Positions 20,022 to 35,695 of a stretch of DNA of 64,000 nt are shown in pieces. This DNA is from Gemmatimonadota bacterium. Its GTDB lineage: Bacteria > Gemmatimonadota > Gemmatimonadetes > Gemmatimonadales > Gemmatimonadaceae. The notes below the pieces were generated by a model. That model had not been told where the DNA came from and did no database searches. It saw nothing but the letters and a program-made list of their open reading frames with translations. Every line of letters begins with the position of its first letter. Within the stretch, counting starts at the first letter, position 1. The translations under genes were made by a program, and so were the position numbers. The stretch is from positions 124,001-188,000 of the forward strand of contig JAPLKS010000017.1 in assembly GCA_026387915.1 (NCBI GenBank), written 5' to 3'.

Positions 20022-21461
20022 CTATACTGCGTCTGAGAGGGAGCTAAAGGTGAACTCGCGCACTTTGATCGCCGGCATCCACGTCGCGCCGCCGGCGCCG
20101 AGCGCTTCGCTCGCGTTCACGCGCACCGCTGGCCCGAGCGCCTCGAGATTGTTCAGGAAGAAGATCGGGCTTTCGTTGAAACGGAAGTTCTTCAACGACT
20201 TGGTCACCTTGCCGTTCTCAATCAAGAACGTGCCGTCGCGCGTGAGGCCCGTGTAAAGAATCGAGCGCGGGTCGGTGGCGCGGATGTACCAGAAGCGCGT
20301 GCACAAGATGCCGCGTTCGGTGCTGCGAATCATCTCGGGCACATTCGACATACCGCCGAGCATGCGGAGCGAGCGCCCGCCGCCTCCACCACCGCCTCCG
20401 CCGCCACCTCCACCGCCGCCGCCACCACCACCGCCAGAACGCGTGGGCTTCACGCCCTGCTTTTGCGCCCAGAAGCGATCGTAGTTGAGGTTCTTGACGA
20501 TGCCGTTCTCAATCCAGACCACTTTCTCGAGTGGCGCGCCATCTTCATCGTAGCCGCCGCCGGTGCTCGGCGAGTCGGCGGGATCGCTCATAAGCGTGAC
20601 GCGATCGTCCACGACTTTCATGCCGATCTTGTTGCCACCGCCCTGGCGGGAGAAGAACGAACGTCCTTCGTCGGCCGAGCGCGCTTGCATGGCACCGGCG
20701 ATCATCTGCACAAGATTGCCAACGGCCGTGGGTTCGAGAATCGTCACGTAGCGGCCGGGCTCAATAGCCACGGGGCTGCGCGACTGTTGTGCTTTTTCGC
20801 TTGCGGTCATGCCCACGCGTTCGGCGTCGATATCGGCAAACGAATCACCGTCGGAGCAGGCCCATCCGGAGCCGGTGCCGTCGGTGGTGCGCACCGTCGC
20901 GGTCATCGTGACGACGGAGCTTGAGTCGTACGCGAACAAGCCCTTGGAGTTGGCGAGGGCGCTGGCGCCGGCGCGGCACTCAATAAAGCCGGTCGCTACG
21001 AGTCCAGCGGCGCGCGCGCGTTCCGTCACCTTCTTGGCAGCGGCGGCGCGTTCGCTCGGGCTCGGCATTCCAATCGCCCGATCTTTTGGCGCGGGGTACT
21101 GATAATCCTGCGTGCCGAGTTCCGGCATACGCTCCGGATTCGGCGGCACGAGCTTGGCGATTTCGTGCGCCTGCTTGGCGGCCGCGGCGAGTGAGGCGTC
21201 GTCCAACCGATTGGTGACGGCGCTCGCGGCGCGGTTGCCGACGAACGCGGTGATGGTGACCGTGGTGTCACGGTTCTCGCCGCTGGTGGTCACTTGGTTC
21301 ACGGCAAAGCGTGTGTCGCCGCGCGCCGAGCTGTTGACGGTGACGCGCGTTTCCTCCGCTGGGGAGAGCTTGAGCACGCGTTGCGTGAGCGCTTCGGCCT
21401 CGGCGCGCGAGAGCACACCGGTGGGGGCGAAGAGCGATTTCGGGGCAGAGAAGTCGCTCAT
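20022..21461 (-). CDS. TldE/PmbA-like subunit of a TldD/TldE metalloprotease, with a poly-Gly insert
   Basis: A 479-residue protein of the TldD/PmbA family, which forms a heterodimeric metalloprotease that processes peptides such as microcins and CcdA antitoxin. This is the TldE-type subunit: the family fold is present (ANSKGLFAYDSSSVVTMTATVRT, SRSPVAIEPGRYVTILEPTAV, LYTGLTRDGTFLIENGKV), but there is no HExxxH, as usual for the partner subunit. It has no signal peptide. A run of 20 consecutive glycines (20376-20435) interrupts it between WAQKQGVKPTRS and RSLRMLGGM. The ATG at 21461 overlaps the tldD stop (ATGA); the longer frame is out. It ends opposite the sigma-operon terminator. Confidence 0.85.
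   Translation of the reverse strand: MSDFSAPKSLFAPTGVLSRAEAEALTQRVLKLSPAEETRVTVNSSARGDTRFAVNQVTTSGENRDTTVTITAFVGNRAASAVTNRLDDASLAAAAKQAHEIAKLVPPNPERMPELGTQDYQYPAPKDRAIGMPSPSERAAAAKKVTERARAAGLVATGFIECRAGASALANSKGLFAYDSSSVVTMTATVRTTDGTGSGWACSDGDSFADIDAERVGMTASEKAQQSRSPVAIEPGRYVTILEPTAVGNLVQMIAGAMQARSADEGRSFFSRQGGGNKIGMKVVDDRVTLMSDPADSPSTGGGYDEDGAPLEKVVWIENGIVKNLNYDRFWAQKQGVKPTRSGGGGGGGGGGGGGGGGGGGGRSLRMLGGMSNVPEMIRSTERGILCTRFWYIRATDPRSILYTGLTRDGTFLIENGKVTKSLKNFRFNESPIFFLNNLEALGPAVRVNASEALGAGGATWMPAIKVREFTFSSLSDAV
20376..20435 (-). repeat. 20-codon glycine run in tldE
   Basis: Sixty bases made only of glycine codons (GGT, GGC, GGA and GGG mixed) in the reading frame of tldE. The codon mix means it is not a pure microsatellite, but it is slippage-prone. 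Confidence 0.9.
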
Positions 21462-23077
21462 GCGCGCCGTCCCGTGTTGATGATGTTGACCTGCGTGAAG
21501 TGCGCGGGGACGCAACCGTGACTCACCGAGTTGCTCTGGCCTGGCTGTCCCTTGGCGTCGCCGAAGGCGCCGCCTAAGTGGTAGCTGCGCGGGCCGCCGA
21601 TGCGGTCCATGGATTTCCAGAAGAGCGGAGTTTGGAACTGATACGCGACGTCCTTGAGCATGCCGACGATCTTGCCGCCTTTCACTTCGTAGAACACTTG
21701 GCCGGCGAACTGGCCGTTGTAGCGCTGCTGATCAATGGAGAAGGAGCCGTCGCCGACGATGGCGATCCCCTTGTCCATTGAGGCGATCATGCTGTCCCAC
21801 GTGTCGTCGTTCTTGCCCGGTTGCAGTGAGACATTGGGCATGCGCTGGAACTGCACGTCGCTCCAGCTCTGTGCGTACGAGCAGCCGTACGAGCGCACGG
21901 GTTTGCCGACTTTCTTGTAATACCAATCGAGCATCGTGGCTTGTTCGCGCGTGGTCTGGTAATCCACGAAGAGGCCGTTTTTGATGATGTCGAACTTCAC
22001 GGGCTGTACGCCTTCGTCATCCCACTTGACGGCGCCGAGCGAGCCCGGCTGGTCGCGGTCGCCGACGATGTTCATCACGTCGGAGCCGAACTTGAGTTGC
22101 CCGAGCACTTTCTCTGGCGGCGCAACGAAGCTGGTGCCTGCGTAGTTGGCTTCGTAGCCCATGGCGCGGTCGAGTTCCGTGGGATGCGCCACGGTTTCGT
22201 GAATCGTGAGCCAGAGGTTGGACGGATGGAGCAGGAGGTCGTAGCGCCCCGGTTCCACCGGCTTGGCGGAGAGCTTGGCGACGGCTTCTTCGGCCCAACG
22301 CGTGGAGTTCTCGCCGAGATTGGCTTTGATCACATGTTCATAGCCGGCGCCTGCGGGCGCGATGTCGTTCGACTGGCGCGTTTGGAAATCGCTGAAGTCG
22401 CTCGAGACGGCGGTGATGCTCATGGAGGGCTGCGTGCGGTAGACCGTTTGCACCGTGTAGGTGCCGTCGCTGGTCATGAGCGTTTTTTCTTCCTTGAGGA
22501 AGAACATTGAGCTCGTGACGTTGCGCACGCCTTTCACTTTGGCGGCGGCGGCGTTGGCGTCGAGCAGCAGCGCGCACTTCTCGGGAATCGAAATGCTCCA
22601 GGGGTCGGTGATGATGGGCGTTTTCCATTCGCCGACCTGATTCCCCGGGGTGGGGGCGAGGTTCACCGGCTTGATCTGACTAAAGCGATTGGCCTTGGAC
22701 TGTTCGATGGCGCTTTTGGCGGCCAGTGCGATGGAGTCTTTGGTGAGCTGGCTTGTGGCGGCAAAGCCCCACGCACCGTCAACAAGCGTGCGAACGCCGA
22801 GCCCGAAGGTGTCGGTGTCGCTGGCGCCCTGCACGATTTTGTCGCGCGTGTTGACGTTCTGCTGGCGGCGCGCGGAGACGCGCACGTCGGCGTAGCTGGC
22901 GCCTGACGCCTTGGCCACGTCGAGGGCGACTTGCATGAGTGCTTTGACGACTGGGTCGCCGGCGGTCGGCATCGGTGCGGCGAACGCGTCGCCGGCGTAG
23001 AGTGCGCGCGAACCGACAGCGGCCGTAGCGGCGACGGCCGCTGTGGTGCGCAGGAAGTCGCGACGTGAGTGTGTCAC
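21458..23077 (-). CDS. TldD-like metalloprotease subunit with Tat signal
   Basis: The catalytic TldD-type subunit, 539 residues from the GTG at 23077. The zinc site is HETVAH (HExxxH) in WLTIHETVAHPTELDRAMGYE; the Cys of SHGCVPAHFTQ near the C-terminus matches the third ligand of E. coli TldD. The N-terminus is a textbook twin-arginine signal: SRRDFLR followed by an Ala/Val-rich core and AFA before the mature part. This is unusual because E. coli TldD is cytoplasmic, and the partner TldE here has no signal. The GTG start was chosen because the Tat signal begins directly after it; 28 further upstream codons look non-coding. It overlaps tldE by 4 bases. Confidence 0.87.
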   Translation of the reverse strand: MTHSRRDFLRTTAAVAATAAVGSRALYAGDAFAAPMPTAGDPVVKALMQVALDVAKASGASYADVRVSARRQQNVNTRDKIVQGASDTDTFGLGVRTLVDGAWGFAATSQLTKDSIALAAKSAIEQSKANRFSQIKPVNLAPTPGNQVGEWKTPIITDPWSISIPEKCALLLDANAAAAKVKGVRNVTSSMFFLKEEKTLMTSDGTYTVQTVYRTQPSMSITAVSSDFSDFQTRQSNDIAPAGAGYEHVIKANLGENSTRWAEEAVAKLSAKPVEPGRYDLLLHPSNLWLTIHETVAHPTELDRAMGYEANYAGTSFVAPPEKVLGQLKFGSDVMNIVGDRDQPGSLGAVKWDDEGVQPVKFDIIKNGLFVDYQTTREQATMLDWYYKKVGKPVRSYGCSYAQSWSDVQFQRMPNVSLQPGKNDDTWDSMIASMDKGIAIVGDGSFSIDQQRYNGQFAGQVFYEVKGGKIVGMLKDVAYQFQTPLFWKSMDRIGGPRSYHLGGAFGDAKGQPGQSNSVSHGCVPAHFTQVNIINTGRRA

Positions 23078-23149
23078 TGGCGGTCCCGTGTGGAAAGTTG
23101 AGATGACCAGCAGAAGATACGGCGCGGACGCTCCACTTGTTGAGGGGGG

Positions 23150-23186
23150 GGCGCCAATCACGGCGGGATTGGCGCCGCTATATATT
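23150..23186 (+). promoter_or_regulatory. inverted repeat and -10 element before the GlcG/HbpS gene
   Basis: A 9-bp perfect inverted repeat ggcgccaat/attggcgcc (23150-23158 and 23168-23176) is followed directly by TATATT (23181-23186), a good -10 box 33 bases before the ATG at 23219. The repeat covers where the -35 element would be, as expected for an operator; the -35 itself is poor. Confidence 0.45.
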
Positions 23187-23218
23187 CGGGAACCTCCCTT
23201 CCCTCGACCCCACCGACC

Positions 23219-23707
23219 ATGCCCCGTCTCTCGTTGCGGTTTGTCGCGATTGCCCTTGCTGCCCTCGTGCTTGGCGGGCTTCCGCGCTCGGCCGCCGCTC
23301 AGCTGGGCGACGCCAAGACCATCACGCTGCAGGCCGCGCGCACGATGCTCGCCGCTGCCGAGGCGGAGGCGAAGCGCAACGGATGGAATGTGTCGATCGC
23401 CGTGGTGGATGCGGCGGGGGAACTCATTGGCTTTGTGCGCATGGATGACGCGTCGCCCGGAAGCGTGGGGATCTCGCAGGCCAAGGCGCGCACGGCTGCA
23501 CGGATGCGCCGGCCGACCAAGGCCCTCGACTCCGTGGTGTCAGCGGGGCGCACGGGGATTTTGTCGTTCGAAGGGGTGGTCGCGGTGGAGGGGGGTGTGC
23601 CGGTGATCGTCGGCGGCAAGTTCATTGGCGCGGTGGGTGCGAGCGGTGCGACCTCAGCGCAGGACGCACAGGTCGCGAAAGCCGGCGTTGAGGCGTTGAA
23701 GCCCTAA
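23219..23707 (+). CDS. secreted GlcG/HbpS family protein
   Basis: A 162-residue protein of the GlcG/HbpS family (DUF336, COG3193). HbpS of Streptomyces binds haem and senses redox stress; GlcG is encoded in glycolate operons and its role is uncertain. The signal peptide ends at RSAAAQ. The core shows ITLQAARTMLAAAEAEAKRNGWNVSIAVVDAAGELIGFVRMDDA, then SISQAKARTAARMRRPT-like helices and GGVPVIVGGKFIGAVGASGATSAQDAQVAKAGV, all diagnostic of the family. A haem-related protein beside the multihaem cytochrome operon is suggestive, though it is on the other strand. An inverted repeat and a -10 box precede it. Confidence 0.85.
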   Translation: MPRLSLRFVAIALAALVLGGLPRSAAAQLGDAKTITLQAARTMLAAAEAEAKRNGWNVSIAVVDAAGELIGFVRMDDASPGSVGISQAKARTAARMRRPTKALDSVVSAGRTGILSFEGVVAVEGGVPVIVGGKFIGAVGASGATSAQDAQVAKAGVEALKP

Positions 23708-23745
23708 CGCCGAATACGGCTCGCTTGGCGAACCGCATTCGGCGT
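23707..23745. terminator. hairpin between the GlcG-like gene and the barrel gene
   Basis: Long imperfect hairpin: acgccgaat (23707-23715) pairs with attcggcgt (23737-23745), and the inner part (cggctcgc / gcgaaccg) continues with one mismatch. It lies between two converging genes. Confidence 0.6.
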
Positions 23746-23785
23746 GAGCTACTTCGGAGCACGCAACAGCGGTCAGCCGTCTCCG

Positions 23786-25456
23786 CTAGAACCGGTAGCT
23801 GATCGAGGCGTACGTCTGTCGGCTCCGGTCAAGCGTGCCGGATTCTGCGTACGTGGAGAGCATGAGGTAGAGGGAGCGTCCGATGCCGATGTCAGCGTCG
23901 GTGCTAGTCCACGTCACGCGTGATGCCCCCGTGCTGCTGAGGGGCGTTGAGGACTCGCGTACCCCAGCACTGTACATCACGTGGAGCGCGCCGAAGGGCG
24001 TGGTTTCAACGGATGCGGACTGCAGGCGACCGGTACTTGCCGGCCCGTCGTACGTGGTCATGCGCACATGCATACCGATCTGCGCGCGGGTGAGTCGCGT
24101 GAGCGACGCCGAGGAGGTCACCGATTGCGTGGCGTCGGTGTTGCCGCCGGTGCTGCGGCGCACGTCGGAGCTGAGTCGCAGCACGCCGAACAGCGACAAC
24201 GCCCCGCCGCCCCACATGCCTTCGCGGAAGCTGTCGTCGAAGATGATTTCCGGGTTCAAGAAATCGCGATACAGTCGCACGTTGCGCCGATTGTCGAGCC
24301 CACCGTACAACGAAAATGCATCGGTGACGGTGAACTGCGCGGTGAGGAACGATGACGTGGGCGTGGTGGACGCGTGTTCTTGCGTGCCTTTCCAACCACG
24401 GTTGAAGTCGAGTTCTTGCGTGGCGTAAATGGAAAGCTTCGGGCCGTTGTAGGTGATGCGGGCGAAGGCGTATTCTCGGTCGATCTGACCACCGGCGTAC
24501 GAACCGACGCCGCCGAGCGTGAGCGACCAGGGCCGCGTTTCATCGCGTGTGTTATGGAGCTGCAGGTATGCGCCGTACTGTCGCGACAGGCTCGAGAGGC
24601 CGAGCGACACGGGGTCCGGTTGCTGCCCGGCGAATGCGCCACTGCTCCAGCGCTGTCCGTCGAGGTCGAGCGCGGCGCCGTCGAACATACCAACGGAGGA
24701 CAATGCCTGCGGGAACTGGCGACCGAGCGCGAGTCGAAGCGGCGAATGATCGGGCGTGTATTGAATCACCGCTTGATAGACGCGCGTCGTTTGTTCGTCG
24801 GGACTTTGCGTGGAAGTGCTCGGGCGTGTAAATGTCGACCGCTGGGCACGCACGTCGAGGGCGATGCCGATGGCCGAGCCGCCGAGGCGTTGTCCGTCGA
24901 GGCGCGCATCGATGCCCGGCTGCGCGAGCGCGACGCCGGCAGCGGGATTCAACAGCAGGTAGCGCAGGCCGATTCGGCCGCGGAGCGAGCCGCCGCTGCT
25001 GGCGCGCATGCTCGTTGGTGTCATCGCGCCGGTCAGAGTGGTCGTACTGGTGGCCAGGCGGGCCGGTGCAAAGCGCACGGAGTCGCCGATTTCGGCCTGT
25101 GCCTCAGCGGTTTGCCGAGTGCACGCCGCGCGTGAGGACGAGATATAGGTCACCACGAGTTCGCCAACGACGGTGCCGCCGCGTATGACGGCGAGTCGCG
25201 ATCCTTCGCGCAGACCTGCGTTGGTGCCGGCCTCAAGATACACCATCGCGCCGCTGAGGTAGCTAACGCGAGTCCACGCCGTCGTGGCGTCGGTCGTCGT
25301 CGTGGTGTCGGCGGTGTGGTTGCCGCGCACCGTGCGCGCGGCAACCGCACCGCCGGACTCCTGCGCGCCGGCGTGCGAGGAAACAGCGACCAAGAGTGCG
25401 ACGGCCCGTGCAAAGACGGGCAGTGTGCCAGTGTAGAGTCGCAGGTGCGCGGTCAT
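23786..25456 (-). CDS. predicted outer-membrane beta-barrel protein of the cytochrome operon
   Basis: A 556-residue exported protein that I do not recognise by family. The signal peptide ends at SHAGAQ. An SH3-like small domain follows (SYLSGAMVYLEAGTNAGLREGSRLAVIRGGTVVGELVV..., about residues 65-130). The remaining 400 residues alternate polar and hydrophobic residues with many aromatics and Gly/Ser/Thr turns, like a transmembrane beta-barrel. The last residue is Phe in SISYRF, the usual outer-membrane assembly signal. The ATG at 25456 overlaps the stop of the 46-haem cytochrome gene (ATGA), so it is translated with it. By analogy with porin-cytochrome conduits (MtrAB, PioAB, Geobacter Pcc) it may be the barrel that lets a multihaem cytochrome cross the outer membrane, but no sequence similarity to MtrB is visible to me. 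Confidence 0.68.
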   Translation of the reverse strand: MTAHLRLYTGTLPVFARAVALLVAVSSHAGAQESGGAVAARTVRGNHTADTTTTTDATTAWTRVSYLSGAMVYLEAGTNAGLREGSRLAVIRGGTVVGELVVTYISSSRAACTRQTAEAQAEIGDSVRFAPARLATSTTTLTGAMTPTSMRASSGGSLRGRIGLRYLLLNPAAGVALAQPGIDARLDGQRLGGSAIGIALDVRAQRSTFTRPSTSTQSPDEQTTRVYQAVIQYTPDHSPLRLALGRQFPQALSSVGMFDGAALDLDGQRWSSGAFAGQQPDPVSLGLSSLSRQYGAYLQLHNTRDETRPWSLTLGGVGSYAGGQIDREYAFARITYNGPKLSIYATQELDFNRGWKGTQEHASTTPTSSFLTAQFTVTDAFSLYGGLDNRRNVRLYRDFLNPEIIFDDSFREGMWGGGALSLFGVLRLSSDVRRSTGGNTDATQSVTSSASLTRLTRAQIGMHVRMTTYDGPASTGRLQSASVETTPFGALHVMYSAGVRESSTPLSSTGASRVTWTSTDADIGIGRSLYLMLSTYAESGTLDRSRQTYASISYRF

Positions 25457-27660
25457 GTGGTGCCTCGCGGGTGACAGGAGTAGCAGGTGGGGCTGTCGTA
25501 CTTGTAGCCCGAACGTCCTTGGTGCGCGCTGTCCATTTTGTTTTTCAGATGGCAGGTCGTGCAGACGAAGGATTTGAAATTCGTCGGCACGGTGTGGCAG
25601 TCGGCGCAGACGCTCCAGCGTCCTTTGTGTTTGCCTGAGTAGATCGGGAAGAATGACCCATCGTGATTGAACGTCGCGCCGCTCCACGTGGTGGTGGTGT
25701 GGCACGAGGCGCAGTCAGTGGGGAAGCTGGCGGCCTTGTGGTTGGGATTTGTGGTGGCGTCGTACTTGGCCTGATGGCAGCCCACGCACACCATGGTCTT
25801 ACCGTGGTACACGCCGTCGCCGTGGCACGAACTACAGGGCGTGCTCACGTGCGCGCCGGTGAGCGGGAATCGCGTGGCAGAGTGGCTGAACGTGGCCGGC
25901 GTCCATGCCGTGGTGGTGTGACAGGTGGCGCAGGTCGTGCCGAAGCCGGCCGCGGCGTGCGGCGGATTCTTCGTAGCGCTGTATTTCGCCTGGTGGCAGC
26001 CGACACAGTCCTTGGTCTTACCGCGGTAGACGCCGTCGCCGTGGCAGTCGGTGCACACCGCCGCGCGGTGCGCCCCGGTGAGCGGAAATGCCGTCGTACC
26101 GTGATCGAAGCTGGCGCCCTTCCACGACGCGGTGCCGTGGCACGAAGCGCAGGCGGTGGGATAGCCGAGCTGCGAGTGCGGCGGAAGCTTGGATGCGGTG
26201 TAATCCTTTTGGTGACACGACACGCACGCGGTCGGCTTGCCTTTATAGACGCCGTCCGCGTGGCACGACGCACAGAGCGCGGCCTTGTGGGCGCCGGTGA
26301 GCGGAAACTGCGTTAGCCCGTGATCGAAGGTGCTCGGCGTCCACGCGTTGGTGCTGTGACAGGTGGCGCAGGCGGTGGAGTAGCCGACTTGGGTGTGCGG
26401 CGGACTCTTTGTGGCACTGTATTTCGCCTGATGGCACGCAACGCATGCGGTGGGTTTGCCTTTGTACACGCCGTCGGCGTGGCAACCGCTGCACAGCACC
26501 GCGCGGTGTGCGCCGCTGAGCGGGAACTGCGTGGCGTTGTGATCGAACGTGCTTGGCGTCCACGCGTTGGCCGTGTGGCAGGTAGAGCAGACGGTGGAGT
26601 AGCCGATCTGTGCGTGCGGCGGATTTTTGGTGTTGTTGTAGTTCGCCTGATGGCAGGAGACGCACGCGGTGGGTTTGCCTTTGTAGACGCCGTCGGTATG
26701 GCAGCGGCTGCACGCCGCCGTCCGGTGTGCACCGACGAGTGGGAACTGCGTGGCGTTGTGATCGAACGTGGCCGGGCTCCAGCCGCTCGTCGTGTGGCAC
26801 GAAGCGCACGAGGTGCCGAATCCTGCTGCGGTGTGCGGGGGATTCTTGGTGGCGTTGTAGTTGCCCTGATGGCACGACGCGCACACGGTCGATTTTCCCT
26901 TGAACACGCCATCGCTATGACACGAGGCGCAGACCGCGGCTTTGTGACCGCCGGTGAGCGGGAACTGGGTGGCGTTGTGATCGAAGGTGCCGCCGCTCCA
27001 CGTGGTGACGCCGTGACAGGTTGAGCAGACGCTCGAGAATCCAAGCTGCGAATGCGGCGGCATCTTCGAGTTCGTGAAGCTTGCCTGGTGACAGGACACA
27101 CAGGCGGTGTTCTTGCCCTTGTACACCCCGTCGCTGTGGCACGAGATGCACAACGCGGCTTTATGCGCGCCGGCCAGCGGGAACTTGGTGGCGTTATGGT
27201 CGAAACTGCTCGGCGTCCACGCCGTGGTGGAGTGACAACTGGCGCAGGTGGCGGGGAAGCCGGCCGCGCTGTGCGGCGGATTCTTGGTGGCGGTGAAGTT
27301 GGACTGATGGCAGCCCGAGCACTCTTTGGTTTTGCCGCGGTACACCGCATCGCCGTGGCACGACGCGCAGGTGGCGGCTTTGTGCGCGCCCGTTAGGGGG
27401 AACTGCGTGAGTGTGTGGTCAAAGGTGCCGCCCATCCACGCGGTGGTGGTGTGGCACGATGCGCACGCCGACGAGAATCCGAGCGCCGAGTGTGGCGGGC
27501 GCGCGGAGGCGTCGAAGTTCTTTTGGTGGCACGACTGGCAGGAGGTCGCCTTGCCTTTGAAGATGTTGTCGCCGTGGCAGCCCGCGCATGAGGCAGCCCG
27601 GTGTGCGCCGGTGTGCGCCGGTGAGCGGAAAGAGCGTGACGTCGTGACTGAATGACCCAC
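25453..27660 (-). CDS. 46-haem cytochrome, C-terminal part after frameshift (30 CxxCH)
   Basis: This frame carries the C-terminal two thirds of a giant secreted multihaem c-type cytochrome. A perfect 10-bp tandem duplication at 27601-27620 separates it from the N-terminal part; genuine coding in this frame starts there (GAHRAASCAGCHGD), and the GTG at 27660 is only the first in-frame start. I count 30 CxxCH motifs in about 715 residues. The sequence is a chain of tri-haem modules, each of about 72 residues with the pattern FPLTGAHKAAxCxxCH, DGVYKGKxxxCVSCHQ, NPPH then CxxCH and TAWTPSTFDH. It ends in a distinct cap with CADCH, CTTCH and CYSCHPRG. The stop overlaps the start of the beta-barrel gene. 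If one repeat unit is removed, the whole gene (25453-28903) reads as a single 1146-residue protein. Confidence 0.8.
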   Translation of the reverse strand: MGHSVTTSRSFRSPAHTGAHRAASCAGCHGDNIFKGKATSCQSCHQKNFDASARPPHSALGFSSACASCHTTTAWMGGTFDHTLTQFPLTGAHKAATCASCHGDAVYRGKTKECSGCHQSNFTATKNPPHSAAGFPATCASCHSTTAWTPSSFDHNATKFPLAGAHKAALCISCHSDGVYKGKNTACVSCHQASFTNSKMPPHSQLGFSSVCSTCHGVTTWSGGTFDHNATQFPLTGGHKAAVCASCHSDGVFKGKSTVCASCHQGNYNATKNPPHTAAGFGTSCASCHTTSGWSPATFDHNATQFPLVGAHRTAACSRCHTDGVYKGKPTACVSCHQANYNNTKNPPHAQIGYSTVCSTCHTANAWTPSTFDHNATQFPLSGAHRAVLCSGCHADGVYKGKPTACVACHQAKYSATKSPPHTQVGYSTACATCHSTNAWTPSTFDHGLTQFPLTGAHKAALCASCHADGVYKGKPTACVSCHQKDYTASKLPPHSQLGYPTACASCHGTASWKGASFDHGTTAFPLTGAHRAAVCTDCHGDGVYRGKTKDCVGCHQAKYSATKNPPHAAAGFGTTCATCHTTTAWTPATFSHSATRFPLTGAHVSTPCSSCHGDGVYHGKTMVCVGCHQAKYDATTNPNHKAASFPTDCASCHTTTTWSGATFNHDGSFFPIYSGKHKGRWSVCADCHTVPTNFKSFVCTTCHLKNKMDSAHQGRSGYKYDSPTCYSCHPRGTT

Positions 27661-28730
27661 CCTTCCACGCGGTGGTGCTGTGGCACAGCTCGCACGTCAC
27701 CGGGAACCCCGATGCGACGTGCGGCGGATTCACCGATTTGTCGAACACCCCTTGGTGGCAGCTGACGCACGTCGATACGCGCCCGCGGAACACACCGTTC
27801 GCATGGCAATCGTTGCACGTGGCCGTGCGATGCGCGCCGGTCAGCGGGAAGCGCGTGACGCTGTGATCATATGGTGCGCCCTTCCACGCTGCGGTGGTGT
27901 GGCAGTCGGCGCACGCGGAGGTAAAACCGAGTTGCGAGTGCGGTGGACGTAGCGAGGCGGCAAAGTCTTTCTGGTGGCACGACTGACACACCGCAGACTT
28001 TCCCTTGAACACATTGTCGGCGTGGCAGCCGCTACAGAGGGCGAGGCCGTGTGCGCCGGTGAGTGGGAACTGCGTGGTGCTGTGATCGAACGTCGCACCC
28101 TTCCACGCCTGCACGCCGTGGCACGTCGTGCACAACGTCGGGAACGCCGAGGCCGCGTGCGGCGGCGCTGCGGTTTTGTTGTAGTCCGGGGCGTGACAGC
28201 TCATGCACGCCATCGGTTTGCCCTTGAACACGCGATCGGCGTGGCATCCCGCACAGTTGACGGCGCGATGCGCGCCCGCGAGTGCAAACTGCGTGAGGTT
28301 GTGATCGTATTTGGCGGAGTGCCAAGTCGAGACGTCGTGGCACGATGCGCAATCCTGTGAAAATCCCGCGCCCTGATGGTCCGGCGAGGTCGCGCTCCGG
28401 AACGTGCCCGCGTGGCAGCCGACGCACGTCGTGGGACGGCCGCGATACTGGCCTTGTCCCGGCACGGATCCGGTGTGGCACCCTTCGCACGAGACACCAA
28501 CGTGTGCGCCGCGGAGCGGAAAGCGGGTGAGTTCGTGGGCACGCGCCATGCGTGCGACGTCTACAAAGCTGCGCGTCGTGTGGCATCGGTCGCACGTGGT
28601 GCCGAACTCGCTCTTGTGTACGTCCGTGTGGCACGACGCACAGCTCGACGTGACGGTCGAGAAGACCAACGACTTGTGGCAGCTCACGCACTCGGTGCGC
28701 TGATGTGCGCCGTCGAGTGGAAAGCGACCC
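25640..28730 (-). repeat. tri-haem module repeat, period about 216-225 bp
   Basis: At least 14 in-frame copies of a unit starting at gccggtgagcgggaa-type sequence on the plus strand (FPLTGAH on the protein), at about 25857, 26078, 26297, 26516, 26736, 26951, 27174, 27390, 27615, 27838, 28058, 28275, 28505 and 28709. Each unit encodes three CxxCH motifs. The central copies are the most alike, which suggests recent duplication or gene conversion. Confidence 0.85.
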
Positions 28731-28903
28731 TCCGCGTGGCGGAAGGTTGAGGCGATGACCGCTGGCTTCCATCCGTCAGCGCGGTGGCACCCACTGCACG
28801 CGCCAATGGATGGACCATGCGGATTGTCGGCGCCTTGTGCGTGTGCGGGTTGACCCGCGAGTGCGAGCACGAGCGCGGCGAGGCCGGCGTGCGACCATGT
28901 CAT
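27419..28903 (-). CDS. 46-haem cytochrome, N-terminal part (signal peptide plus 16 CxxCH)
   Basis: N-terminal part of the giant multihaem cytochrome. The ATG at 28903 overlaps the stop of the 23-haem gene (ATGA) and has GGGAGATC 8 bases upstream. A signal peptide (MTWSHAGLAALVLALAGQPAHAQ, cut after AHA) directs it to the periplasm, where haem is attached to CxxCH. Sixteen motifs lie in about the first 430 residues, in the same tri-haem repeats as the C-terminal part. After HDVTLFPLTGAHR (about 27611) this frame leaves the repeat pattern and runs as nonsense until the stop at 27419, because of the 10-bp tandem duplication at 27601-27620. With one copy removed, 3441 bases (1147 codons) read through. 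The duplication may be real, phase-variable or an assembly error. Confidence 0.8.
   Translation of the reverse strand: MTWSHAGLAALVLALAGQPAHAQGADNPHGPSIGACSGCHRADGWKPAVIASTFRHAEGRFPLDGAHQRTECVSCHKSLVFSTVTSSCASCHTDVHKSEFGTTCDRCHTTRSFVDVARMARAHELTRFPLRGAHVGVSCEGCHTGSVPGQGQYRGRPTTCVGCHAGTFRSATSPDHQGAGFSQDCASCHDVSTWHSAKYDHNLTQFALAGAHRAVNCAGCHADRVFKGKPMACMSCHAPDYNKTAAPPHAASAFPTLCTTCHGVQAWKGATFDHSTTQFPLTGAHGLALCSGCHADNVFKGKSAVCQSCHQKDFAASLRPPHSQLGFTSACADCHTTAAWKGAPYDHSVTRFPLTGAHRTATCNDCHANGVFRGRVSTCVSCHQGVFDKSVNPPHVASGFPVTCELCHSTTAWKGGSFSHDVTLFPLTGAHRRTPGCLMRGLPRRQHLQRQGDLLPVVPPKELRRLRAPATLGARILVGVRIVPHHHRVDGRHL
27601..27620 (-). repeat. 10-bp tandem duplication causing a frameshift
   Basis: Two perfect head-to-tail copies of gtgtgcgccg. 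All other modules of the same gene have a single copy at this position (for example near 26507 and 26727). The extra 10 bases shift the reading frame. Confidence 0.95.
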
Positions 28904-30903
28904 TTCGATCTCCCGGTGGGCACTTTGGCGTGACAGCTTTCGCACGCCCCGGCGAGGGGGCGGTAGATGACGCGTTGTTGAGCGTCGCGGCGATGGCACA
29001 ACGCGCACGCCGTACGCGCGTGCGCGCCAGCGAGCGAGAAGGTCGCGTCGCGATCGTGATTGAATCGGGTCGCAGGGGCAAAGCTCGCGATGCCGTGACA
29101 CGACTCGCAGGCGCCGCCATCCTTGCGGCCGCCGAACTGGCTCCCGTGCGGCGTGTCGTGGCAGGACGCACACCGATCGCGCCGCTGCGTGAAAGGTAGG
29201 GATGCGAGTTTGACTGGTGCCGCGATAAGTGTTGAGCTGGCGCCAACGGATTTCATAGCGTCGTGGCAGGCCACGCACGGCGCGGCCCGATGCGCACCGT
29301 CGAGTGCGAAGGAAAAATTTCCGTGCGACACGACCGTCACCGTCGACGGCCGAAACGCGGTGGCGTCGTGACAGCTGCGGCACCCTTGCGTGTTCGCGCG
29401 CGCGGCATCGGTGGTGAACTGCCCCGCGTGCGGATCGGCGTGGCACGATTCGCACGCGGTTTCCGGAATGGCGATGGCGACCTTCGCCGTGCCGAGCGAG
29501 GCCGCGAGGGTGAGCGCAGGCAGCCCGCGACGCGTGGCCGCGTGGCAGGCGGCGCATGGCACGGCAGCGTGACGGCCCTCGAGCGGCAGGCGTTTCGTGG
29601 CGTGCTGCGCGCGGGAATACGTGCTCGGCTTCCACCCGGCGTCCGTGTGACAGCCCTCGCACGCACCCTTGTCGGCGCTTGCGTTGAGTTGTCCGCCGTG
29701 CGCGTCGGTGTGGCAGGAGGCACACGCGTTGAACGACAGGTGCAGACGCACGGTCTTCGGTCCGCGTGCGTTGGCCGCGCGTGCCACGGCCGTATGACAC
29801 GCGGCACACTTCACCGTTTGATGGCGCCCACGCAACGCAAAGCGCGTCACCTGATGTTTGGCTAATGAAAAGGTGGAGGGCGCGAAGCCACTCACGGTGT
29901 GGCACGTGCTGCAATCCAGCGGCGCGCCGTTCTGCGACGCCTCTCCGGCATGGGCATCGGTGTGGCACGACCCGCACGTGGCGAACGGCGGATTCTTCTT
30001 CATGGTGGGGCCATGGCAGGCTTCACACCGCACCGTGCGGTGCTTGCCGTCGAGTGCATAGCGTGTGCGACTGTGGTCAAACTCCTTGCGGTCCACAATC
30101 GCGAAGCCGCGCGTCACGTGGCAGTCGCCGCACTTTGCTGAGAGACGGCCTTTGTGCGGGTCCTCGTGACAGGCCGAGCATTCTTTGTGGCCAAGCGGTT
30201 TGAAGAGCGGAACCGTGCGGCCGGCGGCCGTCGGCGCGATGTGCAACCGCGCCGCGAGGTGGCACTTGTCGCACTCCACGTCCGCGTGCTTTCCGGTGAG
30301 CGGATAGTCGCTATTGGCGTGGTCGAACTTCGGCGCGGGCTTCCACGCCTTGGCGTCGTGGCACTTGTCGCACGATGCGCCAAGTGAGTTCTGGTGGATG
30401 TCGTCGGCGCGGTGACAGGTGGCGCAGGTCGTTTCGAGCCCCAGCCACCCTGGCGCGGCGTGCCGCGGAAAGAGCGCGACCGCCGGCGACACGCGATTCG
30501 CGGGCGTGTGGCACTTTTCGCATTTGGTCGTTGCATGCTTGCCGTCGAGCGCCCACCCTGCGCGACGGTGATCAAACTTGGCGGCCGATCCTTCGGGCCA
30601 CGCGATGAGCGCGAAGTTCGTGCCCGCGTGATCGGGGTGACAGCTCGCGCACGGTTTGCCACCGGCCTTCATTTCGCGCGCATGCAAGCCGCGGTTCTTG
30701 TCGACGGTCCACGCGAGATCTTTGTGACACGCGAGGCACAGTTGCGCCATTGGCTCTTTGCGGAGCCCGTGGCACTTGATGCAGTTGGCCGGACCTTCGA
30801 GGTTGGCGTGCGCCTTGGCGAGCGCGCCGGGCGAGATCTGCCCGAACGCGCTCGATGTGGCCAGCAGCAGCCACGGGAGCACACGCCACACTCGGCGCAT
30901 CAT
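28900..30903 (-). CDS. 23-haem secreted c-type cytochrome
   Basis: A 667-residue protein with a signal peptide (WRVLPWLLLATSSAFGQ) and 23 CxxCH haem-binding motifs that I counted from CIKCH near the N-terminus to CESCHAKVP near the C-terminus. The pairing of CxxCH with additional His residues (for example FDHRRAGWALDGKH, KFDHANSDYPLTGKH) gives bis-His haem ligation in the doubled-CxxCH/cytochrome c3 style. Modules of the type DYPLTGKHADVECDKCH repeat throughout and are related to, but more diverged than, those of the 46-haem protein. It overlaps the flavoprotein stop and the 46-haem start by 4 bases each. It probably carries electrons across the periplasm between the membrane redox proteins and the larger cytochrome; direction is not known. 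Confidence 0.88.
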   Translation of the reverse strand: MMRRVWRVLPWLLLATSSAFGQISPGALAKAHANLEGPANCIKCHGLRKEPMAQLCLACHKDLAWTVDKNRGLHAREMKAGGKPCASCHPDHAGTNFALIAWPEGSAAKFDHRRAGWALDGKHATTKCEKCHTPANRVSPAVALFPRHAAPGWLGLETTCATCHRADDIHQNSLGASCDKCHDAKAWKPAPKFDHANSDYPLTGKHADVECDKCHLAARLHIAPTAAGRTVPLFKPLGHKECSACHEDPHKGRLSAKCGDCHVTRGFAIVDRKEFDHSRTRYALDGKHRTVRCEACHGPTMKKNPPFATCGSCHTDAHAGEASQNGAPLDCSTCHTVSGFAPSTFSLAKHQVTRFALRGRHQTVKCAACHTAVARAANARGPKTVRLHLSFNACASCHTDAHGGQLNASADKGACEGCHTDAGWKPSTYSRAQHATKRLPLEGRHAAVPCAACHAATRRGLPALTLAASLGTAKVAIAIPETACESCHADPHAGQFTTDAARANTQGCRSCHDATAFRPSTVTVVSHGNFSFALDGAHRAAPCVACHDAMKSVGASSTLIAAPVKLASLPFTQRRDRCASCHDTPHGSQFGGRKDGGACESCHGIASFAPATRFNHDRDATFSLAGAHARTACALCHRRDAQQRVIYRPLAGACESCHAKVPTGRSK

Positions 30904-32342
30904 CCGGCACGCGCCTGATCAGGCGGCAACGGCACGTCTTTCTCCACGATGCGCACCCCGAGCCGCTCGAGGAACGCAAAGGGTGCATCGCCGCCAATGC
31001 GAATGACCACGTGATCGTTCGGCAGAATCGTGGTCTCGCCGTTGTACTCGAGCACGGCGACATCGTTGCGAATTTCCCGCACGGTGCTGCCGAGCATGGT
31101 GCGTACGCGACCGGTGTCGATAAGCCGCTGAAGTTTGGCTTGGTTGCGCTCTTTGATGCGGGAGAACGCCTGGGCGCGATACGAAAGAATGACCTCGGTG
31201 CCCTTCTGGTTGGCGAGCCCAAGCGCCGATTCAACCGCGCTATCGCCGCCGCCCACCACGAGCACGCGCCGCCCAGCGAACGCCTCCATTTCGACGATGT
31301 CGTAAAATACTTTCGCGAGCTCTTCGCCCGGCACGCCAAGCCGGCGCGGCGTGCCACGGCGACCCATCGCAAGGACAACTCGGCGCGCGCGGTGCACACC
31401 GTCGGGCGTCTGAATGCGGAAGACGCCATCTTCGCGCACGACCGTTTCCACGCGCTGTTGCGTCTGCACCTGCAACCCCGTGTTGGCGACGATCGTCTCC
31501 CACACTTGCAGAAGCGTTTCCTTGGAGGCGTCGGCAATCCAGAGGTCGCCGTAGAGCGGAATGTGCACCGGCTCCGCGAGCAGCAGTTTGTGCCGCGGAT
31601 ATTTGCGCACCGTGTCGGAGAGCGAGCCTTGCTCGAGAATCACATAGCTCAGCCCGCAGCGCAGCGCCTCGAGTCCAGCGCTCAGGCCGGCCGGTCCGGA
31701 GCCCACAATCGCAACATCCACCGTGTCGGCATCACCGTCCGTGCGCACAGCGCCCGGAGGGAGGGACCGCGCGACGCCTTCGATGGCCATCTTGCCTTCG
31801 TTGATCGCGTTTTTGATGAGGCCGCGACCGCCCAGTTCACCGACAATGAAGAGGCCAGGGACGTTCGTTTCGAATTGGTCGTCAATCAGCGGCACCTGCA
31901 CGCGATTCACCGCTGAGCCCGTCGTCACGGAGATGGCGCCTACCGGGCAGCCACGCACGCATTCGCCATGTCCTTGGCAGAGCGCGTCGTCCACGACGGC
32001 CAGTTTGCCGCGTAGCGTGATGGCGCCTGGCTCGGGGCAGGCGGCCACGCAGGTGCCGCAACCCACACACATGTCGCCACGCACCATCGCGCGCAGCACG
32101 CCGCCGTCGGCTGTTGCCGGCTTGGAGTTGGGCGCCTGCACCAGTTCAAAGATCTGTTGCGGCACCCCACACCCGGGGCAGAAGGTAGAGCCTTGTGGTA
32201 CTACCACGCGGCACCGCGGGCACGGGCGCCCGCGGACGGCGGCAGGTGCCAACGGTGCGGACGACGGCGCGCCACGGGCGCGCAGGTGGAGCCACACCAT
32301 CAATGCGGTCAGCGCAAAAAAAGCGACGGTTGTTTCGAGCAT
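30900..32342 (-). CDS. membrane-anchored ferredoxin/FAD-NAD(P) oxidoreductase
   Basis: A 480-residue composite flavoprotein. Domains in order: one N-terminal membrane helix (residues 3-18), a zinc ribbon (Cys41, 44, 55, 58), a two-cluster ferredoxin domain, then a thioredoxin-reductase-like FAD/NAD(P) domain with VGSGPAG (about 213-219) and a second Rossmann motif VLVVGGGDSAVES. The first cluster motif is CVGCGTCVAACP (Cys92, 95, 98, 102). The second is CQGHGECVRGCP, where His125 replaces the second Cys. The ferredoxin and flavin domains should face the cytoplasm and exchange electrons with NAD(P)H. The ATG at 32342 lies 8 bases after the cytochrome b stop; the longer frame to 32450 overlaps that gene and is rejected. 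It overlaps the 23-haem gene by 4 bases. Confidence 0.85.
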   Translation of the reverse strand: MLETTVAFFALTALMVWLHLRARGAPSSAPLAPAAVRGRPCPRCRVVVPQGSTFCPGCGVPQQIFELVQAPNSKPATADGGVLRAMVRGDMCVGCGTCVAACPEPGAITLRGKLAVVDDALCQGHGECVRGCPVGAISVTTGSAVNRVQVPLIDDQFETNVPGLFIVGELGGRGLIKNAINEGKMAIEGVARSLPPGAVRTDGDADTVDVAIVGSGPAGLSAGLEALRCGLSYVILEQGSLSDTVRKYPRHKLLLAEPVHIPLYGDLWIADASKETLLQVWETIVANTGLQVQTQQRVETVVREDGVFRIQTPDGVHRARRVVLAMGRRGTPRRLGVPGEELAKVFYDIVEMEAFAGRRVLVVGGGDSAVESALGLANQKGTEVILSYRAQAFSRIKERNQAKLQRLIDTGRVRTMLGSTVREIRNDVAVLEYNGETTILPNDHVVIRIGGDAPFAFLERLGVRIVEKDVPLPPDQARAG

Positions 32343-32350
32343 CGCGTCGC

Positions 32351-33397
32351 CTACCGCAACCAGGTCGCGCCGACGGCGACGACGACCACTACGTGAATCA
32401 CCACCGCCACGAGCGCGGTGATCGCGAATGGGCGGTGCGCCACATGCCAATAGCGAAACACACGGTGCGTGGCCTCAAGCATGCGCGTCTGTTGCATGAG
32501 CGACATCTCGCGGTCCGCCAGCTTGAGCGCTTCGCGAAGCGTCGTGCGCTGGATGGGCCGTCCATCGGGCGCCGCGGCAGACCAGCGACGGCGCAGCTCG
32601 CGGGTGCGGCTCCAGCGCGAGAGGTCATTCGTAAGCAATCGTGTGATCACGCGGAGCACGCCGTCCTGTGCGACGTCGTCATGCGACAGTTGCAGCATCT
32701 GCTCGACCGCATCGACGGAGAGCCCCATCGTGGCGGCGAGGCGGTCGATCAGCTCGCGCCGCTGTGTGGCGACTTCGTCGCGCGTGAGTTCCACGCCGCT
32801 CTTGGCGCGCGGAATGCGCGTGTACAAATACCGCCCCGCTACGCCGCTCGCGATCACAATGAGCATCGCGGTGAGCCCCAATCCAATCACGCCGTCGGAG
32901 CGCCAGGCCGCATGAATCGCGAGGAGCAAGGGCAGGGCCAGCGCCGTCGTCACATGCACGTCGAGCCACTTACCCACAGATCCCGTGAAGGCGAGCGACT
33001 TCCACTTCTTACGCAACGGATACAACCAGAGAAACACGAACACCACAAAGGCGAGCAGTCCCGCGCTTTGCCCCACGAGTCCCGAGGGTCGCAGCCACGC
33101 GTGCCATGGATGCCGGACCCGATCTGGCACCGCGGCGAGGTAGTACTCCGCGCCAGCAATGTTCACGGCGACCAGCGGCAACACGATGATGGCGAGCGCG
33201 AGCCCACCACCGCGACTTTTTGGCGCGGCCGCCGGCCGTTTGGCTGGCGCTGTCGGACGCTCCGCGGGTGCCCGGTGCGGCGGATCGCCGACGGGCTGAG
33301 GATGCGACGCCGGCACCGGTGAGGCTGATGGGTGCGGTAGGTGTACCCGCGGCGGCTGGATAGCCGTCCCGGCATGGGCCGTGCTCTGAGATGACAT
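32351..33397 (-). CDS. di-haem b-type membrane cytochrome-like protein
   Basis: A 348-residue membrane protein, first gene of the multihaem operon. A Pro/Ala-rich, disordered N-terminus of about 62 residues precedes hydrophobic segments at about 65-88, 105-127, 146-163, 170-188 and 323-343. Two of these helices carry pairs of His spaced 14 apart: His148/His162 and His321/His335, the pattern of helices that sandwich two b-type haems. Between helices 4 and 5 is a soluble helical domain of about 130 residues (DEVATQRRELIDRLAATMGLS...). I know no named family for the whole, but the haem-ligand pattern resembles cytochrome b561/ferric-reductase-like proteins. Likely role: electron exchange between quinones and the periplasmic multihaem proteins. 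The ATG is the first in frame; no strong ribosome-binding site. Confidence 0.75.
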   Translation of the reverse strand: MSSQSTAHAGTAIQPPRVHLPHPSASPVPASHPQPVGDPPHRAPAERPTAPAKRPAAAPKSRGGGLALAIIVLPLVAVNIAGAEYYLAAVPDRVRHPWHAWLRPSGLVGQSAGLLAFVVFVFLWLYPLRKKWKSLAFTGSVGKWLDVHVTTALALPLLLAIHAAWRSDGVIGLGLTAMLIVIASGVAGRYLYTRIPRAKSGVELTRDEVATQRRELIDRLAATMGLSVDAVEQMLQLSHDDVAQDGVLRVITRLLTNDLSRWSRTRELRRRWSAAAPDGRPIQRTTLREALKLADREMSLMQQTRMLEATHRVFRYWHVAHRPFAITALVAVVIHVVVVVAVGATWLR

Positions 33398-33548
33398 GCG
33401 ATGTCTGTGGGGGTAGGCTTGCCGTCGCGACGAAGAGTCGAGCGAGGCGCGTGGCTGGTCTCAGCACAGGGGCCACTTGCGTGGCTTCACGCACCTCCGC
33501 GATTCGCGAGGCGTAGAGGGCAAACTCCGTAGAAGTACGAAGCCCCGC

Positions 33549-33564
33549 TGTGACTTACGTCACG
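33549..33564. promoter_or_regulatory. CRP/FNR-family-type operator
   Basis: TGTGA-CTTACG-TCACG matches the CRP half-site pattern TGTGA-N6-TCACA at nine of ten positions. It lies in the 273-base divergent gap between the cytochrome operon (start 33397) and the DinB-like gene (start 33671). I could not identify matching -10 boxes. Confidence 0.45.
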
Positions 33565-33670
33565 TTTTGAAAGAAAAGAAATCGGAATATCCCACCGCAT
33601 TTGCCGCCACTCTTTCGCTGACTGTCAGGCCGAGGCATCTTCCGAGCTCCTCCAATCGCCCCGACACACC

Positions 33671-34210
33671 ATGCCAACGCCCCCTGCTTCCTCCGCGGCC
33701 GCCACCCGCCCAGCCGATGATGAGTTCGCGCCCTACTATGGTGGCTACATCGCCCTCGTCCCTGGCGGCGACGTCCGCGATCATCTGCGCCAACAGCTCC
33801 ACGAGACACTCGCCACGCTCACCGGCGTCGGCGACGACGTCGCCAGCCGTGCCTACGGGCCGGGGAAGTGGACTCTCAAGGAAGTTCTGAGCCATATCTG
33901 CGACGCCGAACGCGTGTTCGCGTACCGCCTGCTCCGCATTGCGCGCGGCGACGAGACCCCGCTCCCTGGTTTCGAACAGGATCATTGGATCCCAACCTCC
34001 GGCGCCAACACGCGCACCCTCGAAAGCCTGCTGATCGAGTTCGCCTCCGTGCGCGCGGCCACCCTCACGCTGCTCGCCTCACTCCCCGACGAAGCCTGGG
34101 CACGCCGTGGCACCGCGAGCGGCAAGCCGGTGTCGGCCCGCGCACTGGCCTACATCACGGCCGGACACGAAAAGCACCACATGCGGATCATTCGCGAGCG
34201 ATATCTGTAG
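33671..34210 (+). CDS. DinB-like protein (DinB superfamily, four-helix bundle)
   Basis: A 179-residue cytoplasmic protein of the DinB/YfiT superfamily, which includes metal-dependent thiol S-transferases and hydrolases using bacillithiol or mycothiol. Despite the name these are not the DNA polymerase IV DinB. The metal-binding His residues fit the family triad: His75 in EVLSHICDAERVFAYR and His166 plus His169 or 170 in TAGHEKHHMRII. Other family segments are GPGKWTLKEVLSHI and the arginine-rich helix ends. No signal peptide. Divergent from the cytochrome operon and convergent with lpdA; a hairpin follows. The exact reaction is unknown. Confidence 0.82.
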   Translation: MPTPPASSAAATRPADDEFAPYYGGYIALVPGGDVRDHLRQQLHETLATLTGVGDDVASRAYGPGKWTLKEVLSHICDAERVFAYRLLRIARGDETPLPGFEQDHWIPTSGANTRTLESLLIEFASVRAATLTLLASLPDEAWARRGTASGKPVSARALAYITAGHEKHHMRIIRERYL

Positions 34211-34230
34211 CCGTCGCGTGGCTGCATGCA

Positions 34231-34266
34231 ACGAGGGGCGATGCGCGTCAGCGCATCGCCCCTCGT
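34231..34266. terminator. terminator between the DinB-like gene and lpdA
   Basis: A perfect 16-bp stem with a gtca loop (34231-34246 and 34251-34266) lies between two converging genes, 21 bases after the DinB-like stop and 20 bases beyond the lpdA stop. Confidence 0.75.
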
Positions 34267-34285
34267 TCGTTTCATCCAACAGTGC

Positions 34286-35695
34286 TCAGATGTGAATCGC
34301 GCGCCCTGTCACCGCGAGCGCCGCTTCCTTCACCGCCTCATTGAGCGTCGGGTGCGAGTGCACCGTGATGCCAATGTCCTCGCTCGTGCCGCGCACTTCC
34401 ATGGCCAGCACGACTTCCGTGAGCAGATCACTCGCATTGGCGCCAATAATATGGCAGCCCAAAATTTCATCCGACTCGGCGTCGCACACAAACTTCACAA
34501 AGCCGCTCGTCTCGGCCATCGTGCGCGCGCGGCCATTCGCGGAGAACGGAAACTTGCCCGTGCGATACGCGCGGCCAGATGCCTTCACTTCCGCTTCCGT
34601 TAAACCAACGGTCGCGATCTCCGGCCAGGTGTACACCACGCCCGGCATGTTGTGATAGTGCATGTGCACCGGCTTGCCAGCGATCACCTCGGCGGCCACC
34701 ACCCCTTCTTCTTCGGCCTTGTGCGCCAAGAGCTTGCCGCCAACGGCATCTCCAATGGCAAACACATTCGGCAGATTCGTGCGCATCCGATCATCCACCG
34801 CAATCTCGCCGCGCGCGCCGAGCGTGAGCCCGAGCGCGGCGGCATCAATGCCGTAGAGCGACGGCTTGCGACCGATGGAGACGAGCACGTAGTCGCCTTC
34901 GAGCGTCTGCGCGGTGCCGTCCTTCTCGATGTCGACCAACACTTTCGTCCCTTCACGACGCCCGCCGACGACTTTCGTGCCGGCGTGCACCGCGAGTCCC
35001 TGCTTCCGGAAGATTCGGTCCGCTTCCTTGATGATCTCGTCGTCGTTGCCGGGCAAGATCGTCGGCGCGTATTCCACCACCGTCACCTTCGCGCCGAGCC
35101 GCCGCCACACGGAACCGAGTTCGAGTCCAATCACGCCGCCGCCGATCACAATCAAATGCTGCGGAACCTGCGGAATGTTCAGCGCGCCCACATTCGAGAG
35201 CACCCGCTCTTCGTCGAACGGAAGAAACGGCAGACCACTCGGTACCGAACCGGTGGCGATAATCACGTGCTTGGCGCGGTAGGTGGTCAGCGCGCCGTCG
35301 TGCCCCTTCACCTCGACCACATTGCCGCTCATAAGCGTGGCCCAACCCTTGGCCCACGTGACTTTGTTCTTCTTGAAGAGAAATTCAACGCCCTTGCAGT
35401 TGGCGGCCACCACATCGTCCTTGCGCTTGAGCATCTGCGCGAGGTTGAGCGTGAGTTCGCCAACCGAAAAGCCGTGCTCCTCTGAGTGCAGTCGCGTCGC
35501 TTCGTAGCGTTCGCTCGACTGCAGCAGTGCTTTCGACGGAATGCATCCGACATTCACGCAGGTGCCGCCTAACGTGCGGTCGCCTTCGACGCACACGGTC
35601 TGCAGTCCAAGCTGCGCGGCGCGAATGGCGGCCACATAGCCGCCGGGCCCGCCGCCAATGACGAGGACGTCTGGGGTCAACAGGGTGTCAGACAT
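34286..35695 (-). CDS. lpdA: dihydrolipoyl dehydrogenase (E3)
   Basis: A 469-residue flavoenzyme that reoxidises dihydrolipoyl groups of 2-oxo acid dehydrogenase complexes and makes NADH. It shows the FAD motif VIGGGPGGYVAAIRAAQLG, the redox-active disulfide GGTCVNVGCIPSK (two Cys five apart), the NAD motif IGGGVIGLELGSVWRRLG, and the second FAD motif NVFAIGDAVGG. The C-terminal dimer-interface catalytic pair is His and Glu of HSHPTLNEAVKEA. Full length and no missing key residue. It follows the E2 gene after a 3-base gap and should be co-expressed with it; no E1 gene (odhA or pdhAB) is in this window. Confidence 0.95.
   Translation of the reverse strand: MSDTLLTPDVLVIGGGPGGYVAAIRAAQLGLQTVCVEGDRTLGGTCVNVGCIPSKALLQSSERYEATRLHSEEHGFSVGELTLNLAQMLKRKDDVVAANCKGVEFLFKKNKVTWAKGWATLMSGNVVEVKGHDGALTTYRAKHVIIATGSVPSGLPFLPFDEERVLSNVGALNIPQVPQHLIVIGGGVIGLELGSVWRRLGAKVTVVEYAPTILPGNDDEIIKEADRIFRKQGLAVHAGTKVVGGRREGTKVLVDIEKDGTAQTLEGDYVLVSIGRKPSLYGIDAAALGLTLGARGEIAVDDRMRTNLPNVFAIGDAVGGKLLAHKAEEEGVVAAEVIAGKPVHMHYHNMPGVVYTWPEIATVGLTEAEVKASGRAYRTGKFPFSANGRARTMAETSGFVKFVCDAESDEILGCHIIGANASDLLTEVVLAMEVRGTSEDIGITVHSHPTLNEAVKEAALAVTGRAIHI

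Follow-up and report, generated by a model that had tools for sequence, protein, structure and literature searches.

The window analyzed here, a stretch of 64,000 nucleotides, comes from a Gemmatimonadota genome of 3.58 Mb in 23 contigs. Its minus strand carries, from 33397 to 23786, five genes that encode, in this order, a five-helix inner-membrane protein (IMP), an anchored oxidoreductase (FNR), a multihaem cytochrome (MHC) with 23 CxxCH motifs, a second, larger cytochrome built of repeats, and a barrel protein. The IMP and FNR genes are separated by 8 bases, while the remaining three junctions are ATGA overlaps. The sequence thereby bears out a first-pass annotation that had described five minus-strand genes with an 8-base gap and three ATGA overlaps: all five exist, follow each other as stated and are coupled in translation. 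The features are as follows:

32351..33397, minus strand: IMP, di-haem b-type membrane protein, 348 aa, with five TM segments (hydropathy) and motifs
30900..32342, minus strand: FNR, Fe-S/FAD/NAD(P) oxidoreductase, 480 aa (Pfam, AF2, VIA)
28900..30903, minus strand: cytochrome 1, 667 aa, 23 CxxCH, signal-peptide-like N-terminus
27419..28903, minus strand: cytochrome 2, 5' part, with 494 aa and 16 CxxCH in this assembly; stop after the frameshift
27601..27620, minus strand: perfect 10-bp tandem duplication (CGGCGCACAC directly followed by CGGCGCACAC) that splits the cytochrome 2 frame
25453..27600, minus strand: cytochrome 2, 3' part, whose frame is shifted; 30 CxxCH, C-terminal CYSCHPRG
23786..25456, minus strand: predicted outer-membrane beta-barrel, 556 aa, signal peptide (AF2 and VIA)

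A search of Rfam over 23000-34300 gave no match, and a promoter and terminator scan returned signal no better than that of shuffles. Convergent with the barrel gene lies a gene for an HbpS-like secreted haem-degrading/binding protein (23219-23707, plus strand; PF03928, 4e-36); on the Sphingobium plasmid pMSHV, an HbpS-like protein likewise adjoins a multihaem cytochrome. Elsewhere in the window, a TldD/PmbA-type metallopeptidase gene (20022-21515, minus strand) contains a run of 20 glycines at 20376-20435, whose GGN repeat is a possible slippage site.

The five gene products

IMP contains two WX3HX13H motifs, the first in TM3 (W144/H148/H162) and the second in TM5 (W317/H321/H335), as well as an SGxxG motif in TM4 (SGVAG, 184-188). 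The motif residues are invariant in alignments of 18-20 homologues from several phyla. Their presence upholds the earlier description of a di-haem b-type protein with His148/162 and His321/335. No match to IMP was found in Pfam and NCBIfam, and the Pfam FRD family gave none at E 0.01, even though the HX13H pairs are shared with ferric reductases. The charges of the loops suggest that the N-terminus would lie inside and the C-terminus outside, and that TM4 and TM5 would be joined by a long cytoplasmic loop.

The second protein, FNR, starts with a TM helix (residues 2-22) and then a zinc-ribbon-like CxxC pair. It also carries a ferredoxin-like 4Fe-4S pair, the second motif of which is CxxHxxCxxxCP; His125 is invariant and the cysteines are conserved. 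Pfam recognizes Pyr_redox_3 (7e-45) and Fer4_21 (1.5e-8), and residues 205-470 form a YpdA/TrxR-like FAD/NAD(P) domain, for which the AF2 model (pLDDT 80) gives a VIA Z of 22-23 to YpdA. As had been claimed, the gene at 32342-30900 encodes a membrane-anchored ferredoxin/FAD/NAD(P) oxidoreductase of 480 aa. The segment around residues 153-191 matches one that is normally C-terminal in flavoproteins, with weak E-values of 0.02-1 and nearly all matches of the same kind, and it also matches the end of the glutamate synthase small-subunit profile. Because this C-terminal-type FAD segment sits N-terminally (~153-191), the flavin domain of FNR looks circularly permuted.

The AF2 model of the last gene product (pLDDT 80.3) comprises an N-terminal beta domain (60-129) and 22 strands over 157-555. 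Structure prediction thus agrees with the signal-peptide beta-barrel first proposed for the end of the operon. In VIA, the model reached a Z of up to 19 to large barrels (PirA, BtuB) over about 340-370 residues at 4-5 A rmsd; this modelled likeness to large outer-membrane receptors is one of shape, not of function. The barrel had no match in Pfam. MtrB-like porins are absent from the best 50 barrel matches listed, which is compatible with kinship of the barrel to them.

Cytochrome 1 has one haem per 29 aa and matches Cytochrome_C7 in Pfam (2e-29); by sequence it had no match in the PDB. Its motif count and its signal-peptide-like N-terminus agree with the earlier call of a secreted 23-CxxCH cytochrome. 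The N-terminus of cytochrome 2 is also signal-peptide-like and ends in AHA, and no lipobox is visible in the cytochromes. Cytochrome 2 is built from 73-aa repeats of 3 haems with a fixed CxxCH spacing of 32-16-25 aa, or about 25 aa per haem. Its 3' part matches Cytochrome_C7 (6e-33), and its CYSCHPRG C-terminus is common to it and to the Emticicia homologue. Chance occurrence of CxxCH was rejected in view of this regular spacing and of conservation. Cytochrome 1 offers 27 further His for its 23 CxxCH and cytochrome 2 offers 50 for 46 (one 10-mer copy ignored), so bis-His ligation is feasible for both MHCs. Cytochrome 1 is the probable periplasmic wire and cytochrome 2 the probable outer-surface wire.

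As assembled, cytochrome 2 is not a single frame. The 10-bp duplication, which sits inside a slippage-prone three-copy 10-mer array (27598-27627), splits it into parts with 16 and 30 CxxCH; minus one 10-mer copy, the gene encodes 1146 aa with 46 CxxCH and 0 internal stops. The first-pass annotation had bridged the frameshift without noting it. Its 46-CxxCH cytochrome is recovered if one copy is ignored, and its total of 69 haem sites is reached only in the same way. The duplication is absent from every fetched locus of other genomes, and the relatives with a complete cytochrome 2 gene have one open frame each. The outer cytochrome may be truncated in the window's own genome, either through mutation or through an assembly error.

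If the duplication is real, cytochrome 2 would stop after 16 haems, translation of the barrel would suffer, and the system would be decaying in this strain. In favour of such decay, the duplication is perfect, lies in a slippage-prone array and, among the loci fetched, is unique to this genome. However, the frames for the barrel and for the remainder of cytochrome 2 have been kept open and are conserved, and repetitive genes are prone to mis-assembly. The closest relative (96% in IMP) bears on neither view, as it ends at a contig edge before the duplication and the site is not comparable. We regard decay as rather doubtful; it concerns this strain and would be compatible with a conduit in the family at large.

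Conservation and spread of the operon

Among 298 Gemmatimonadota genomes sampled, an IMP match was found in 36, of which 31 counted as full-length-like. FNR was found in 30 and both genes in 28 (28/31 IMP carriers; p about 1e-33, uncorrected for phylogeny). FNR is co-inherited with IMP, and its tree broadly follows the phyla. By IMP and FNR, the nearest relatives of the window's genome are Gemmatimonadota MAGs.

A scan of genome contigs revealed IMP relatives encoded in 544 stretches. The best 80 of the 544 come from Gemmatimonadota, Eisenbacteria, Acidobacteriota, Krumholzibacteriota, Bacteroidota, Calditrichota, Ignavibacteriota and Electryoneota, and with Emticicia they make up 81 loci. The exact order IMP-FNR-MHC-MHC-barrel on one strand is present in 28 of the 81, many others being cut by contig ends. 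The placement of FNR varies: some Gemmatimonadota carry it divergently, and in more distant classes it comes after the barrel. Two of the outcomes that the first-pass annotation had named as refuting it did not arise: the genes are conserved together and in order across phyla, and the last of them encodes a predicted barrel.

The two cytochromes differ in how constant they are. The first MHC carries 23 haems in 41 loci and 20 in 23 loci, which accounts for 64 of the 66 complete relatives, whereas the second ranges from 12 to 73 haems (median 28; 41 loci). Bacteroidota versions of the cluster include outer cytochromes with 73 (L114:14074-19509) and at least 72 CxxCH (L148:15054-20513). Contig C14 of the window's own genome encodes a second, distant IMP-like protein of 289 aa beside a 9-CxxCH cytochrome (L065:5794-7514). 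More multihaem cytochromes, with 18 and 16 CxxCH, are encoded on the same contig (L184:376-5416), a few kilobases off two Cytochrom_C_asm genes (C14:170367-172461).

The cultured Emticicia oligotrophica DSM 17448 carries the full five-gene set in this exact order, directly after ccsA, a cytochrome-maturation gene, on its 100-kb plasmid pEMTOL02 (L068:4198-15996), which suggests that the unit is able to move horizontally. Plasmids were also where we sought proteobacterial PCC3 sequences; that search returned Emticicia and other kinds of IMP cluster instead. On plasmids of Methylophaga, Bradyrhizobium, Alteromonas, Methylocystis and Sphingobium (L176-L180), IMP-like genes stand beside other flavin/Fe-S reductases and, in most cases, a small multihaem cytochrome, hinting at a general module of IMP, flavoprotein and cytochrome.

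A proposed electron path across the envelope

Gene content, order and coupling, the motifs, the predicted folds, conservation and co-occurrence all point to a trans-envelope conduit of the PCC3 type, the inner end of which would be wired to NAD(P)H. We give this reading a probability of about 0.62, and within it we infer both the direction and the substrate. That an NAD(P)-dependent Fe-S flavoprotein and a transmembrane di-haem b protein are conserved as a pair suggests, by analogy with ferric reductases, that electrons would enter at the cytoplasmic face from NAD(P)H and be exported via the wire.

Our model suggests that NAD(P)H would reduce the FAD of the anchored FNR, from which electrons would reach the FNR Fe-S clusters at the cytoplasmic face. 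These would pass them on to the two b haems of IMP, which would be paired as H148/H321 and H162/H335 and stacked across the membrane as in ferric reductase/NOX domains. The 23-haem cytochrome, placed in the periplasm by the model, would then relay electrons by docking to the 22-strand barrel and, through it, to the long repetitive outer cytochrome. The latter could finally deliver them to an extracellular partner, which may be iron/manganese oxides, humics, or another cell. A periplasm-spanning inner MHC and a free outer MHC are what one would expect here, so the fixed (20/23) and variable (12-73) haem counts fit the model.

Net electron flow is probably outward. No RuBisCO was found in the host genome, which encodes cytochrome-c assembly proteins and haem-copper oxidases; this gene content fits a heterotrophic life in which an external sink for electrons would be an option. 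In the opposite case, electrons from Fe(II), Mn(II) or reduced humics outside the cell would enter the quinone pool or, by PMF-driven reverse transport through the flavoprotein, would reduce NAD(P)+. Fe(II) oxidisers are the organisms in which PCC3 was originally described, with flow modelled inward to the quinone pool; a PCC3 inner-membrane gene of Sideroxydans CL21 is up when iron oxidation is possible, and the haem-copper oxidases of the host would provide a sink. However, a host genome without RuBisCO and an NAD(P)-linked flavoprotein that must run uphill make inward flow unlikely here. Of the conduit and extracellular electron transfer proposed at first, a membrane-to-surface conduit stands as the best reading, and it is compatible with either direction of flow.

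The point at which electrons join the conduit can also be seen in two ways. He et al. (2017, PMC5566968) modelled PCC3 as quinone-linked with an external donor, and since direct NAD(P)H export would dissipate membrane energy, quinone-linked entry may hold here as well. Alternatively, the operon could represent a distinct five-gene conduit, spread over at least eight phyla, whose permuted Fe-S flavoprotein and di-haem b protein would move electrons from NAD(P)H straight through the inner membrane to a periplasm-spanning haem wire and so bypass the quinone pool. We propose this only tentatively, as somewhat short of an even chance. If true, the quinone bypass would make the system an envelope-spanning machine like a ferric reductase, not a quinol-linked respiratory chain. 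That the cytochromes serve mainly as an electron store (capacitor) or as a buffer of envelope redox stress, with no true conduit to the outside, would account for their very high and variable haem numbers, and capacitor roles have been proposed for similar proteins (PMC11495043, PMC10734462), but the operon includes a coupled and co-conserved gene for a predicted barrel, which makes this quite improbable.

Comparison with PCC3 and other known systems

PCC3 consists of a porin, an outer and a periplasmic MHC (median 34 and 21 haems) and an IMP (He et al. 2017, PMC5566968; PMC10734462). The IMPs of PCC3 and PCC4 carry SGxxG and two WX3HX13H motifs and have been likened to ferric reductases (He et al. 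2017, PMC5566968). The first-pass annotation had found no named system to match the operon, a view that we revise, as PCC3 fits four of the five parts. The five-helix IMP, SGxxG and both WX3HX13H motifs are all present. The periplasmic MHC of ~21 haems has its counterpart in the 23 CxxCH of cytochrome 1 (20 or 23 in relatives), and the large repetitive outer MHC, with a median of 34 haems, may have its own in cytochrome 2, which has 46 sites only with the duplication ignored. The barrel porin of the PCC3 cluster corresponds to the predicted 22-strand barrel.

PCC3 as published has four components, without a flavoprotein, and occurs in Alpha-, Beta- and Gammaproteobacteria; in contrast, the operon described here has FNR as a nearly constant fifth gene and is found in Gemmatimonadota, Bacteroidota and their relatives. 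Because the fifth gene is present and conserved, we call the operon a PCC3 variant with a fifth gene, not a plain PCC3 member, a likeness drawn from published descriptions and motifs. The flavoprotein is new relative to PCC3 as published, although an association between FNR and PCCs was already noted in 2026. The text consulted (PMC13264449) places a ferredoxin-NADP+ reductase gene near 7/11 group-1 PCCs, the porins of which have ~20 strands; it presents these PCCs as decahaem-centred and makes no mention of a five-gene unit, of the IMP motifs or of conservation across phyla.

PCC4 (He et al. 2017) shares the IMP motifs and has separate Fe-S or other redox genes in its cluster. It has no extracellular MHC and its periplasmic MHCs carry few haems, whereas two very large MHCs are encoded here, which sets the operon apart from PCC4. 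The plasmid IMP-MHC sets of Methylophaga, Alteromonas, Bradyrhizobium and Sphingobium resemble the operon in their make-up of IMP, MHC and redox genes. Their cytochromes are smaller (7 and 10 CxxCH where counted), and their flavoproteins differ, being either Fer2/FAD_binding_6/NAD_binding_1 or cNMP with Pyr_redox and Fer4. Ferric reductases and NADPH oxidases (FRD) share the two HX13H pairs on TM3 and TM5 and the NAD(P)H-FAD input; here, in contrast, a separate Fe-S protein of the TrxR/YpdA-like kind serves as the flavoprotein.

A barrel and a multihaem wire through the outer membrane are likewise found in MtrCAB/MtoAB/PioAB and in the Geobacter OmbB-OmaB-OmcB system. Those systems use cytochromes of 8-12 haems and other inner-membrane partners. 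Plain membership in MtrCAB was rejected, with a score of 52 bits for TIGR03508, the decahaem MtrA/DmsE family, against a curated cut-off of 192, and the cytochromes fall far below the curated cut-offs of the decahaem families.

Very large MHCs are known from Burkholderiales, where proteins with 24 and 49 motifs lie ahead of a porin (PMC7399161), and from Saprospiraceae (PMC11495043), and putative PCCs of new types have been reported in Bacteroidetes (PMC6344600). The five-gene unit as such was not found described in the literature searched. The function of PCC3 is still prediction only (PMC12442390), and hitherto chiefly for iron oxidisers and other Proteobacteria. The cultured, plasmid-bearing Emticicia oligotrophica DSM 17448 provides a host for functional tests. 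Compared with published descriptions, as far as the parts of them consulted extend, the five-gene form is broader and more constant: it occurs commonly among Gemmatimonadota, Bacteroidota and phyla related to them, and it supplies PCC3 with a plausible cytoplasmic source of electrons.
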